From Pseudofrankia coriaricola (GTDB lineage: Bacteria; Actinomycetota; Actinomycetes; Frankiales; Frankiaceae): 64,000 bases of DNA. The position numbers and the translations under genes are program-made. The stretch is from assembly GCF_001854805.1 (NCBI RefSeq), contig NZ_MBLO01000236.1, forward strand, positions 83,839 through 147,838. The letters are read 5' to 3'. How positions within the stretch are numbered: position 1 is the first letter of the stretch; every line of letters begins with the position of its first letter. A model generated the notes under the pieces. It was not told the origin of the DNA. It ran no database searches and saw nothing but the letters and a program-made list of their open reading frames with translations. Shown piece after piece: positions 782 to 46,175 of this stretch.

Positions 782-1408
782 TCAGGCGGTGCAGCCCTGC
801 TCGATCATGATGAGGGCGTCGGTGCCGGCGGTCATCAGCTCGGCGGTGAACTCCGGGCCTAGCCGGCCGTCGATCGCGGCCTGCTGGACGGCGCGCGACA
901 TGGCGCGGCTGACGCCGACCAGCGCGGTCGCGAGCACCCAGGGGCGCAGGTCGAGAGGCCCCACGACGAGTTCGGCCGCGACGAGTTCGGCGAGGGCGGC
1001 GGTGGACCGCTCCGCCTCCTGGCGCTCCCGCGCCTGCAGCGCAGGACTCTCGCGGATCACCCGGGCCACGACGGCCAGTTGCTCTCGCGCGCCCGGGTCG
1101 GGGGCGACGAGCAGGCCGCGCGGCTGGAGCAGGAACTCCCGGAACGCCGCCGGCACGGAGACCCCCGGGCGGCGGTCGCGGACCGCCCCCAGCAGAGCGG
1201 CGTGGAAGGCCGCCATGCCGTCGTAGATCAGGTCTTCCTTGGTCGGGAAGTAGTTGAAGACCGTCGCCGGCGACACCTCGGCCCGCTGCGCGATCTCGGT
1301 GACGGGCACCGCCTCGAAGCCCCGCTCGGCGAACAGCGCCACCGCGGCCTCGACGATCCGCTGCCGCCTCGCCAGCTTCTGGCGCTCGCGGAGGCCCACC
1401 TCGGTCAT
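782..1408 (-). CDS. TetR family transcriptional repressor
   Basis: This 208-residue protein has the N-terminal TetR helix-turn-helix (about residues 10-57: RIVEAAVALFAERGFEAVPV, then VTEIAQRAEVSPATVFNYF). The rest is a variable helical ligand-binding domain. The length is typical of the family. It is divergent from the MFS exporter at 1495, and the 86-bp gap contains a 20-bp-arm inverted repeat. That is the classical layout of a TetR repressor controlling its own gene and a drug exporter; the ligand is unknown. It lies at the outer edge of the type II PKS cluster, so the polyketide or an intermediate is a possible inducer (inference). Confidence 0.9.
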   Translation of the reverse strand: MTEVGLRERQKLARRQRIVEAAVALFAERGFEAVPVTEIAQRAEVSPATVFNYFPTKEDLIYDGMAAFHAALLGAVRDRRPGVSVPAAFREFLLQPRGLLVAPDPGAREQLAVVARVIRESPALQARERQEAERSTAALAELVAAELVVGPLDLRPWVLATALVGVSRAMSRAVQQAAIDGRLGPEFTAELMTAGTDALIMIEQGCTA

Positions 1409-20335: not shown

Positions 20336-21283
20336 ATGGCCACCACGTCGCCGGGGAGGACCTCCCGTCCCGCCCCGGCCGCCCCCGCCGAGGCCCGCCC
20401 GGCCGCCACCCACGCGGCCGCCGCCGGCGCCCGCGGCGCGCAGGCGCGCACCGCGCGGCCGGCGGACGCGACGGCGACGGCGACGGCGAGCGACGGGGCC
20501 ACGGGCACGGCGCGGGGCGAAGCCGTCGTGGCCGACGGCGCGGGCACGGGCGCGGCCGGGACTGACGGCGGCACGGGGAAGAGCGCCACGGGCACGGCCA
20601 GGCACGGCACGGGCACGGCGAAGGACGACGCGGGCGGGCCCGCGGTCCTCAGCCCACGCGAGCTGCGCCGACAGGAGCGGCTGCGCGTCGGCAGGGAGCA
20701 GATCCTGGATGCGGCCGAGGAGCTGTTCGGCCGGCAGGGCTACCGCGGCACCAGCCTGCAGCAGGTCGCGAAACGGTGCGAGTTCTCGATCGGCGCCCTG
20801 TACCTGTTCATCGACAGCAAAGAAGAACTGCTGCAGGCAGTGCTCAACCGGCGCACCGTCGAGCTGATGGAGCTGATGGCCTCCTGCCTGGCGGCCGAGG
20901 GCACCGGCGCCGAGCTGCTGGCGCGGCTGGCCCGCACACAGGTCGATTTCCACCGGCGCTACCCGGAGTTCGGCCGGCTCTCGATCCAGCTCATGTCCGC
21001 GCCCGGCGTACCCGGCACACCCGGCTTCCGCGAGGGCTTCGCCCGTGGCTACGACGCGGCAATCGAGCTGGAGGCCGAGCTGTTCGTCAGGGGTCAGCGC
21101 GACGGCACGCTGCGCCCCGGCGACCCAGGCTGCCTTGCCCGGCTGTACTCGGCGATGGTCACCGCGTATCACGCAATGGACCCGGAGGTCTCCGCGGACA
21201 GCGCGGCACTTCCTGACGACATCTTCCTGTCCACTGTCGCCGCCGCCTTCGCGCCGCCTCCGGACGGCTCGCCGGCCCGTTAG
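20336..21283 (+). CDS. TetR regulator with 100-residue low-complexity N-terminus
   Basis: 315 residues, about 100 more than usual. Residues 1-105 are almost entirely Ala, Gly, Thr and Asp/Arg. Residues 110-160 are a clear TetR helix-turn-helix (REQILDAAEELFGRQGYRGT, then SLQQVAKRCEFSIGALYLF), followed by a helical ligand domain. The ATG at 20336 has a GGGGGAC stretch upstream. Third-position bias continues through the N-terminus, so it seems genuinely translated, but a shorter start near VLSPRELRRQ cannot be excluded. Downstream lie two copies of a hairpin element, then the acyl-CoA ligase in the same direction. It may control that ligase. Confidence 0.85.
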   Translation: MATTSPGRTSRPAPAAPAEARPAATHAAAAGARGAQARTARPADATATATASDGATGTARGEAVVADGAGTGAAGTDGGTGKSATGTARHGTGTAKDDAGGPAVLSPRELRRQERLRVGREQILDAAEELFGRQGYRGTSLQQVAKRCEFSIGALYLFIDSKEELLQAVLNRRTVELMELMASCLAAEGTGAELLARLARTQVDFHRRYPEFGRLSIQLMSAPGVPGTPGFREGFARGYDAAIELEAELFVRGQRDGTLRPGDPGCLARLYSAMVTAYHAMDPEVSADSAALPDDIFLSTVAAAFAPPPDGSPAR

Positions 21284-43093: not shown

Positions 43094-43271
43094 GCCCCAA
43101 GTCAACGCCAAGAACCGGCCGGCCGTCCTCCGACCCCCAAACCATTCCCGGCCCAATCGCCCATACCCGCCCAGGCGCGAACCGCGCTGGCCGGGTATGC
43201 GCAGGCACCCCGGCTGGCCGCGGTCCGCTTGTGGGTGGGACGGGGGTCGCATATCGTCCGGGGCGGCTTGG

Positions 43272-43285
43272 TGGAACGTGTTCTA
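43272..43285 (+). promoter_or_regulatory. KstR-like operator upstream of enoyl-CoA hydratase
   Basis: TGGAACGTGTTCTA fits the published KstR pattern TnnAACnnGTTnnA exactly. It lies 69 bases before the GTG of the hydratase gene and 179 bases from the divergent aldo/keto reductase start. Confidence 0.6.
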
Positions 43286-43353
43286 GTCTGGCCTCGCGGT
43301 CCCGTCGCGGCCACCTGGCCGGAGGCCGTCGGTGAGGAGAGCCGAGGCCCTCG

Positions 43354-44193
43354 GTGACGACAGTCTGGGAGGTCGGTGTGCCCGAGTCCGGAGCGAGACC
43401 GCTGGTGCTGGCCGAGGCGGACGGGCCGGTGCTGACGGTGACGCTGAACCGGCCCGAGAAGCGCAACGCGACGAACGCGGAGGTGCTCTGCCGCCTGTAC
43501 GACGCCTGGCGGCGGCTCGACGAGGACGACACCCTGCGGGTGGCGATCCTGACCGGCCGGGGCGGCACGTTCTGCGCGGGCATGGACCTGGCCGAGATCG
43601 GCCGGCTGCGCGCCGGGGTGCGGGACAACGAGTGGATCATCCGGCTGCAGGACGACCCGGGCATCCCCCTCGCGGCCTATTTGAAGAGATACCGGCCCAC
43701 CAAGCCGATCATCCTGGCCGCCGAGGGGCACGCCCGCGCCGGCGGCACCGAGATCCTGCAGGGAACCGACATCCGCGTCGCCGGCGAGAGCGCCGTGTTC
43801 GGGGTGACGGAGGTGCAGCGGGGGCTTTTCCCGATGGCCGGGTCGGCGGTCCGGCTGCGCCGGCAGACGGGCTACGCGGTCGCGGCGGAGATGCTGCTCA
43901 CCGGCGAGGACCTGCCCGCCCGGCGCGCGTACGAGCTCGGCCTCGTCAACCATGTCGTGCCAGACGGGCAGGCACTGGCGAAGGCGCGCGAGATCGCCGG
44001 CCGGATCGCCCGCAACGGCCCGCTCGCGGTGAAGGCGATCCTCGCCACCCTGCGCGAGACCGAATGCCTGCCCGAGGCCGAGGCATTCCCCATCGAGGAG
44101 CGCCACGGAAACGCCGTGATGCGTTCCAAGGACGCCGTCGAGGGGCCGGTGGCCTTCCTCGAGAAGCGCGACCCCGTCTTCACCGGCTCCTGA
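43354..44193 (+). CDS. Enoyl-CoA hydratase/isomerase (crotonase) family
   Basis: 279 residues from GTG 43354. Crotonase features: VLTVTLNRPEKRNATNAEV, the oxyanion-hole loop GGTFCAGMDLAEIG, GHARAGGTEILQGTDIRVAG, FGVTEVQRGLFPMAGSAVRL with a Glu at the catalytic position, and ARRAYELGLVNHVV. It likely hydrates or isomerises an enoyl-CoA during lipid or steroid-type acid catabolism. A KstR-like palindrome in its promoter supports that view (inference). A conserved unknown gene follows after 170 bases. Confidence 0.9.
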   Translation: MTTVWEVGVPESGARPLVLAEADGPVLTVTLNRPEKRNATNAEVLCRLYDAWRRLDEDDTLRVAILTGRGGTFCAGMDLAEIGRLRAGVRDNEWIIRLQDDPGIPLAAYLKRYRPTKPIILAAEGHARAGGTEILQGTDIRVAGESAVFGVTEVQRGLFPMAGSAVRLRRQTGYAVAAEMLLTGEDLPARRAYELGLVNHVVPDGQALAKAREIAGRIARNGPLAVKAILATLRETECLPEAEAFPIEERHGNAVMRSKDAVEGPVAFLEKRDPVFTGS

Positions 44194-44361
44194 CACCAGG
44201 ACCGCCCGGCCTTGCCCCGGTCGGCGTGGCACCGAAGGCGGCCGAGGCGGTGGCCCACCCGCTCTCCGGCGCCCGGCCGCGATTGGGCGCCGGCCGCGCC
44301 GCGCGGGGTCGACATCCACGCGGCGGCGCGCGACGCTGGCGGGACGAAAAGGGGGTCGGAG

Positions 44362-44874
44362 ATGCTCAGCGTGTTCTGTTTCGACCGGCTGGCGGTGACC
44401 GTCCGGGACATGTACTTCGTCGACCCGGACCCGGCCCCGGGGCAGGAAGGCCCGGAGCGGGGAGTGCGTGTCGAGCTGCGGCTCGTCGAGCCGCAGCCGT
44501 GGCGCGGGTCGATCTACGCGTCGCAGCGGATCGTCGTCGACACGTCGCTGCTGCGCGTGGATCTGCTCGAGTCCGTCGAGCGCGGGCCAGGCAGCCGTGA
44601 CCGGGTGCACCACCACCCGACGATGACCGACAACGAGCCCGGCGCGCGTGTCTTCGACCGCGGCCTCACCACCGACCCGGTCGCCTGGCTGCGACAGCGC
44701 CTCGCCGACCCGATGGCGTTGCTCGCCGCGGCCGGCGTCGAGAACCCGGCCGAGTACGAGGAGTCCGCCGACGAACTGGTCGCCTCCCTGCCCGACGTCG
44801 TCGACGCCGTCGCGGCGAGTCTCGAGAAGGTTCGCGCGGGCGAGCTGGCCCTCACCCGGACGCGCGGCACCTGA
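44362..44874 (+). CDS. Hypothetical protein, 170 residues
   Basis: From ATG 44362, preceded by GGGGGTCGGAG. The first half is beta-rich (MLSVFCFDRLAVTVRDMYFV, GVRVELRLVEPQPWRGSIYA, SQRIVVDTSLLRVDLLESVE). The second is helical (DPVAWLRQRLADPMALLAAA, ADELVASLPDVVDAVAASLE). HHHPTMTDNEPGARVFDR lies between them. No family is recognised. It sits between the hydratase and the amidohydrolase, both with KstR-like boxes, so it may belong to the same catabolic unit. Confidence 0.65.
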   Translation: MLSVFCFDRLAVTVRDMYFVDPDPAPGQEGPERGVRVELRLVEPQPWRGSIYASQRIVVDTSLLRVDLLESVERGPGSRDRVHHHPTMTDNEPGARVFDRGLTTDPVAWLRQRLADPMALLAAAGVENPAEYEESADELVASLPDVVDAVAASLEKVRAGELALTRTRGT

Positions 44875-44966
44875 ACGACGCTCCGGCGGCCGGACGTTCC
44901 GAGACGGCCCGCCGCGCGGCGCGGGCGTAAGGCGGAATTTCCGCCGCGAAGTGCGGGCACATCAAA

Positions 44967-44980
44967 TAGAACGCGTTCTA
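44967..44980 (+). promoter_or_regulatory. KstR-like operator upstream of amidohydrolase
   Basis: TAGAACGCGTTCTA is a perfect 14-bp palindrome and an exact match to TnnAACnnGTTnnA. It ends 10 bases before the GTG start, where binding would block transcription or initiation. Confidence 0.75.
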
Positions 44981-44990
44981 AGATTCGGCT

Positions 44991-46175
44991 GTGGACCAGC
45001 TCGGGCACCCGGTGTGGGACGCGGACAACCACTACTACGAGGCCGTCGACGCCTTCACCCGCCATCTCGACCCGCGAGACGGGCCGCGGTGCGTGCAGTG
45101 GGCGACCATCAACGGCCGGCAGTACCACGTGCTGGGCGGCCGGGTCAGCCGGGCGGTGTCCAACGCGACGTTCGACCCCGTCTCCAGGCCCGGCTGCCTC
45201 AACGAGTACTTCCGAGGCAACCCGAACAAGGCGAACCCGCTGGAACTGATCCGCGACAGCGAGCCGGTCCGCGCGGAGTACCGCGACCCGGCCGCGCGGC
45301 TGCGGGTTCTCGACGAGCAGGGCCTGGCGGGCTGTTTCCTCTTCCCGACCCTCGGGATGATCTACGAGGAACCGCTCCGGCACGACCCGGTCGCGGTCAC
45401 GAAGACCTTCCGCGCGTTCAACCGGTGGTTGGCCGAGGACTGGACCTTCGACTACCAGGGCCGGATCATCGCCGCGCCCTACCTCTCGCTCGCCGACGTC
45501 GGCTGGGCCGTCGAGGAACTGGAATGGGCGATCGGCCAGGGCGCCCGGATGGTCGTGATGCGCGCCGCCGCGCCGACGACCGCGACCGGCCAGCACAGCC
45601 CGTTCGACGAGACGTTCGCGCCCTTCTGGGCGCGGCTCAACGAGAGCGGGCTGACCCTGGTGGTCCACGCCGGCGACAGCGGCGTCTCGACTGACGGGTA
45701 TGCCGGCGGCGGGCACAGCTTCAGCTTCTCCGGCAACAGCTACGGGCCGACGATCGCGAGCTTCGCCATCGAGAAGGCGGTGCACGACTACCTGCTCTCG
45801 ATGCTGCTCGCCAACCATTTCGCGAAGTACCCGAACTTGCGGGTCGCCTCGGTCGAGAACGGCGCCGAGTTCCTCCCCGACCTGTTCCGCAAGGCACGCT
45901 CACAGGCGAGGAAGCTGCCAGGCTGGTTCCGGGAGGACCCGGTCGAGATCTTCCGGCGGCACGTCTGGATCAACCCGTTCTGGGAGGACGACCTGGAGTC
46001 CGTCGTGCGGTGGATGGGTGCCGACCGCGTCGTCTTCGGCTCCGACTGGCCGCACATCGAGGCGCTCCCGCGCCCCCTCGACTACCTCCCCGAGACCAAG
46101 CCCCTCTCCCCCGCCGACCGCCGCCTGGTCCTCCACGGCAACGCCCTCGACCTGGCGACGCCCCGCCCCGCCTGA
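44991..46175 (+). CDS. Amidohydrolase_2 family metal-dependent hydrolase
   Basis: 394 residues from GTG 44991. TIM-barrel metal-site motifs: HPVWDADNHYYEAVDAFTRH near the start, LVVHAGDSG in the middle and VFGSDWPHIEALPRPLDYL near the end, as in ACMSD-like decarboxylases and hydrolases. Family members in actinobacteria often appear in steroid or aromatic catabolism. The perfect KstR-type palindrome immediately upstream supports such a role. Substrate unknown. Confidence 0.88.
   Translation: MDQLGHPVWDADNHYYEAVDAFTRHLDPRDGPRCVQWATINGRQYHVLGGRVSRAVSNATFDPVSRPGCLNEYFRGNPNKANPLELIRDSEPVRAEYRDPAARLRVLDEQGLAGCFLFPTLGMIYEEPLRHDPVAVTKTFRAFNRWLAEDWTFDYQGRIIAAPYLSLADVGWAVEELEWAIGQGARMVVMRAAAPTTATGQHSPFDETFAPFWARLNESGLTLVVHAGDSGVSTDGYAGGGHSFSFSGNSYGPTIASFAIEKAVHDYLLSMLLANHFAKYPNLRVASVENGAEFLPDLFRKARSQARKLPGWFREDPVEIFRRHVWINPFWEDDLESVVRWMGADRVVFGSDWPHIEALPRPLDYLPETKPLSPADRRLVLHGNALDLATPRPA

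Follow-up and report, generated by a model that had tools for sequence, protein, structure and literature searches.

A 64,000-nucleotide stretch of the Pseudofrankia coriaricola genome (contig NZ_MBLO01000236.1, positions 83,839 to 147,838; hereafter the window) carries three neighboring genes on the forward strand, which encode an enoyl-CoA hydratase, a 170-residue protein, and a PF04909 protein annotated as an amidohydrolase (Table 1). The initial annotation reported two palindromes at 43272 and 44967 that fit TnnAACnnGTTnnA, the pattern of KstR operators, and placed them ahead of the hydratase and amidohydrolase genes. Both statements were confirmed. Predicted KstR-type operator 1 is TGGAACGTGTTCTA, directly upstream of the hydratase gene, and predicted operator 2 is the perfect palindrome TAGAACGCGTTCTA, directly upstream of the amidohydrolase gene. 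Both operators are intergenic, and they are the only two matches to TnnAACnnGTTnnA in the window (0.03 expected). LexA-type boxes have the form GAAC-N4-GTTC; a LexA reading of the palindromes was rejected because their spacing is two bases.

Table 1. Features of the hydratase-PF04909 locus (window coordinates).
Feature	Position	Strand	Remarks
Putative sigma-70-like promoter of the hydratase unit, TTGTGG-N17-TATCGT	43229..43257	+	Putative, from eight-genome alignment
KstR-type operator 1 (predicted)	43272..43285	.	18-mer 43270-43287; 24.7 bits; conserved in the genus
EchA19-type enoyl-CoA hydratase	43354..44193	+	PF00378; start uncertain, GTG at 43354 or later
170-residue protein, downstream of hydratase	44362..44874	+	No box of its own
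KstR-type operator 2 (predicted)	44967..44980	.	18-mer 44965-44982; 23.7 bits; conserved in the genus and in distant species
Putative -10 element TAAGAT, overlapping operator 2	44979..44984	+	Start codon 7 nt on
PF04909 'amidohydrolase', probable dinuclear metal oxygenase	44991..46175	+	Predicted ligands D12, H14, H226, E289, D352, H355, E357

Across the 11.2-Mb genome, the loose 14-mer has 32 matches, compared with 24 for the reversed control; it is thus weak evidence alone, and a matrix was used instead. When two mismatches were allowed, the control gave more matches than the pattern among the matches listed. The matrix, symmetric and 18 bp long, was derived from 43 distinct mycobacterial sites (Kendall et al., 2007; PMC1995591) and is independent of the Pseudofrankia genome. 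The scores of both operators (Table 1) lie within the range of the training sites (19.5-33.5 bits), and approximately zero sites of at least 18 bits are expected per 11.2 Mb under a third-order background. On the genome-wide distribution of the motif, a check raised by the initial annotation, the loose 14-mer barely exceeds its control, whereas the matrix separates both sites from the background.

A candidate for the regulator presupposed by this reading is present; KstR is the repressor that governs cholesterol breakdown in tuberculosis bacteria. A KstR homologue (E of about 1e-30; 1.3e-30) is encoded at C234:171224-171781, on contig C234 and outside the window. Along almost its entire length it shares 36-37% identity with Mycobacterium tuberculosis KstR, the helix-turn-helix is nearly identical, and its reciprocal best solved relative is KstR (109 bits; second-ranked protein, 70 bits). 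Its score of 154 bits falls short of the NCBIfam cut-off (280), which makes it a distant member. A box of 20.1 bits lies 0.1 kb upstream, in its own promoter (C234:171100), and the kstR promoter contains a box in all eight genus genomes. The homologue was found in 8/8 searched genus genomes and in 2 of 27 other genomes of the family. On C234, kstR adjoins ipdAB-like genes. Two further TetR-type DNA-binding domains are encoded in the window (1172-1384, minus strand; 20642-20857, plus strand) and resemble KstR only in the helix-turn-helix.

The operators are conserved in the genus. A box of at least 23 bits is located upstream of the orthologous hydratase gene in all eight genomes, and a box of 15-24 bits upstream of six of seven amidohydrolase orthologues; in genus alignments, both stand out within otherwise diverged intergenic DNA. 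In one genus member (G007), the box ahead of the PF04909 gene is broken. No close amidohydrolase orthologue was found in another (G005), in which a decayed KstR-type box of 14.3 bits (L196:2892-2909) remains behind the 170-residue gene and is the relic operator of the absent amidohydrolase. The more distant set comprised 75 loci of amidohydrolase relatives (57-77% identical), mostly from uncultured Acidimicrobiia. Ten of them have a box of at least 16 bits within 100 bp upstream of the PF04909 orthologue, compared with eight boxes of the same score in the remaining 784 kb of these loci (odds ratio 130, p 2.5e-16); 0.035 boxed loci were expected by shuffling. Two pairs among the ten look closely related, leaving about eight independent lineages. 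A KstR-family gene is present in 10/10 boxed and in 31/40 box-less distant genomes. The association is consistent with KstR control but not significant (p 0.17), and with so many box-less genomes containing the gene, box presence is not predicted by KstR.

The hydratase scores above the cut-off for NCBIfam PRK07799 and reaches 330 bits against the EchA19 equivalog (cut-off 400). Its best solved relatives are the EchA19 structures 6wyi and 4f47, by which it is classed as EchA19-type and not as an assigned orthologue. A closer EchA19 homologue (389 bits) is encoded in a boxed cluster on contig C11, so the hydratase in the window is a second paralogue. EchA19 (Rv3516) is a sterol side-chain enoyl-CoA hydratase whose gene also has an upstream box in M. 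tuberculosis. The initial annotation had named enoyl-CoA hydratases as a gene type found in steroid degradation. The two hexamers of its putative promoter are almost invariant in the eight-genome alignment, and operator 1 begins 15 nt past the second of them; a generic consensus promoter scan did not call this element.

The 170-residue protein has no Pfam or NCBIfam match; its predicted model is of low confidence (pLDDT 65), and no structural match to it was found. The gene keeps its position behind the hydratase gene in 7/8 genus genomes. Homologues with 67-68% identity occur in two relatives in which no KstR was detected, which makes the protein a weak regulon candidate. Possible co-transcription is the sole argument for its membership. 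The earlier proposal of this protein as a pathway member is therefore retained only in this reduced form. In the two relatives, the homologues (L222-L224, G026:C13:130788-131336) match in three pieces within one open frame, in an insert-like manner.

PF04909 includes carboxylases, hydratases, hydrolases, and monooxygenases (PMC10811679). In this family, AibH2 has six dinuclear ligands and an extra acidic residue that is missing in the mononuclear AibH1 (PMC7782822). As read from the alignment, these residues correspond to the seven predicted ligands in Table 1, which are invariant in 48 sequences. The predicted structure (pLDDT 89) has as neighbors, in order, 4dzi (MAP2389c, the closest solved relative, 40%), then PtmU3, SfbO, and DitZ, and then ACMSD decarboxylases. 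By sequence and by fold, the best functionally characterized neighbor is PtmU3, a nonheme diiron monooxygenase of Streptomyces platensis that belongs to PF04909 and takes CoA-bound diterpenoids. The predicted model has the fold and the complete dinuclear ligand set of PtmU3, AibH2, SfbO, and DitZ; it differs from them in its low identity (17-23% by structural alignment) and its candidate KstR-type control. We consider it reasonably likely that the protein is an oxygenase and that 'amidohydrolase' is a misnomer: a hydrolase is less likely than a dinuclear oxygenase. TAnnnT occurs directly past the palindrome in most boxed PF04909 orthologues. TAAGAT overlaps operator 2 and lies 7 nt ahead of the start codon, and this recurrent layout suggests a leaderless promoter that the repressor would block.

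The box census of the genome is a lower bound, and the boxed genes are at least the following. The box at C234:112989 adjoins an F420 Rv3520c-family oxidoreductase gene and an aldehyde dehydrogenase gene, and that at C234:121170 adjoins a FabK/nitronate-monooxygenase-like gene, behind which lies an HsaB-like flavin reductase gene. Four KstR-type boxes (24.9, 17.3, 15.3, and 13.4 bits) share one gap at C234:145411-145627 (L032:10411-10627), which divides ChsH2-like, lipid-transfer, and thiolase genes from a branched-chain-type ABC transporter operon. Two acyl-CoA dehydrogenase genes, the EchA19 homologue, and a ligase-like gene adjoin the box at C11:37673; an aldehyde dehydrogenase gene and a luciferase-type oxidoreductase gene adjoin the box on C132; and SDR genes adjoin those on C106 and C40. 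Boxes of at least 16 bits include those at the Rv3520c-family, ChsH2-like/lipid-transfer/thiolase, acyl-CoA dehydrogenase/EchA19, aldehyde dehydrogenase, and SDR genes. The high-scoring boxes thus precede genes of lipid beta-oxidation type, and several of these genes are homologous to mycobacterial KstR targets. The mycobacterial gaps listed with boxes include those at echA19 (Rv3515c/Rv3516), Rv3520c/Rv3521, and kstR (Kendall et al., 2007; PMC1995591).

It is highly probable that a KstR-type repressor controls both genes of the locus via the two palindromes. In the proposed mechanism, the TetR-family repressor encoded on C234 would bind each palindrome as a dimer. It would shut off the EchA19-like hydratase gene, probably together with the 170-residue gene behind it, from operator 1, which is predicted to lie just downstream of the promoter-like element and over the likely transcription start, and would shut off the PF04909 gene from operator 2, across the putative -10 element. 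The proposed inducer, which would detach the repressor, is a CoA-thioester intermediate of a polycyclic or branched lipid. Side-chain beta-oxidation would be the task of the hydratase, and the PF04909 protein would probably hydroxylate a CoA-bound polycyclic substrate, like PtmU3.

Two other explanations of the boxes were considered. The small excess of the loose 14-mer over its control would fit chance matches in a GC-rich genome, but the matrix scores far above background, the genus-wide footprints of both boxes, and the enrichment of boxes at one position in distant species make chance extremely improbable. The boxes might also be bound, with or without KstR, by a different TetR-family paralogue whose recognition helix is similar. 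The protein encoded at C239:30587, for example, is a full-length, weaker homologue (32% identical to KstR) and shares 54% identity with the Pseudofrankia KstR across 64 N-terminal residues. However, no box of at least 9 bits occurs in the 15 kb surrounding its gene (L044), whereas a box accompanies the C234 KstR gene in all genus genomes, and we regard binding by such a paralogue as very unlikely.

With KstR-type control of the boxes as the preferred reading, the pathway and the chemistry also have competing explanations. The initial annotation saw a sterol or lipid catabolic regulon. The lipid part agrees with the KstR homologue and with the boxes at beta-oxidation-type genes; the sterol part is in doubt. 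The full classical route of sterol degradation known from mycobacteria and rhodococci would fit the EchA19-type hydratases, the lipid-transfer and thiolase genes, the IpdA homologue close to kstR, and KstD-like proteins with up to 54% identity, the value of the match in the source genome. However, a validated full-length HsaC query had no match at 1e-30 in 7/8 genus genomes, the source genome included (one genus genome has an HsaC-like match of 38%), and a validated full-length KshA query found no close KshA, only partial Rieske matches of 30-35% (E 1e-26 to 2e-30). A KstD-like match at 1e-80 is absent from two of the eight genomes, both of which keep KstR and boxes. Both KshA and HsaC are required of a putative steroid degrader by Bergstrand et al. 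(2016), who do not mention Frankia. With HsaC missing from seven genomes and no close KshA, 'sterol catabolic' is unproven, and a complete classical pathway is unlikely. Judging by its gene content, the regulon seems detached from the canonical 9,10-seco ring pathway; its role may be limited to side-chain oxidation, or it may act on another polycyclic isoprenoid or rely on different enzymes for a ring pathway. As for the PF04909 protein, ACMSD-type zinc decarboxylases share its fold and are close structural neighbors, which leaves oxygenase chemistry a prediction. No redox partner was recognized next to the gene. The protein could accordingly be a hydrolase or decarboxylase with a single zinc or manganese ion, but the invariant AibH2-type ligand set with the acidic residue absent from AibH1, and PtmU3 as the best characterized neighbor, make this doubtful.

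Compared with the mycobacterial KstR (Rv3574/MSMEG_6042) regulon (PMC1995591), the predicted one of Pseudofrankia has the same 14-bp operator core, TAGAACnnGTTCTA, a TetR repressor whose own promoter contains a box, and further boxes at EchA19-type genes, Rv3520c-family genes, and lipid-transfer/thiolase genes. It differs in the distant repressor, which falls under the NCBIfam cut-off, in targets spread across many contigs, in the ring-cleavage enzymes KshA and HsaC, which were not found, and in boxes at PF04909 and branched-chain-type ABC transporter genes. A literature search for links of KstR to amidohydrolases, Frankia, or diterpenes found nothing relevant. Among the lipid-catabolism switches of M. 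tuberculosis, KstR is the best studied; the findings extend it to a plant-associated and soil lineage for which the literature search returned no KstR work, and they suggest that a KstR-type switch may persist without the ring-cleavage enzymes known for it. Tentatively, KstR regulons across Actinomycetota may exist apart from classical sterol ring degradation, with a PtmU3-like dinuclear oxygenase as a recurrent, previously unrecognized member, and may, in the same speculative reading, point to an undescribed route by which Frankia relatives and uncultured Acidimicrobiia would break down steroids, hopanoids, or diterpenoids. A short list of candidate enzymes results, foremost the probable oxygenase misnamed amidohydrolase.

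Three minor observations concern the wider genome. A squalene-hopene cyclase gene (L210:14229-16499; C11:32229-34499) lies at a distance of approximately 3 kb from the boxed cluster of acyl-CoA dehydrogenase and EchA19 genes, a proximity that may be chance or a hint of hopanoid turnover. A box of 16.0 bits is located upstream of an SDR-like gene (L183; C113:46939), and one of 20.2 bits upstream of a Fur-like regulator gene (L187; C252:14939).
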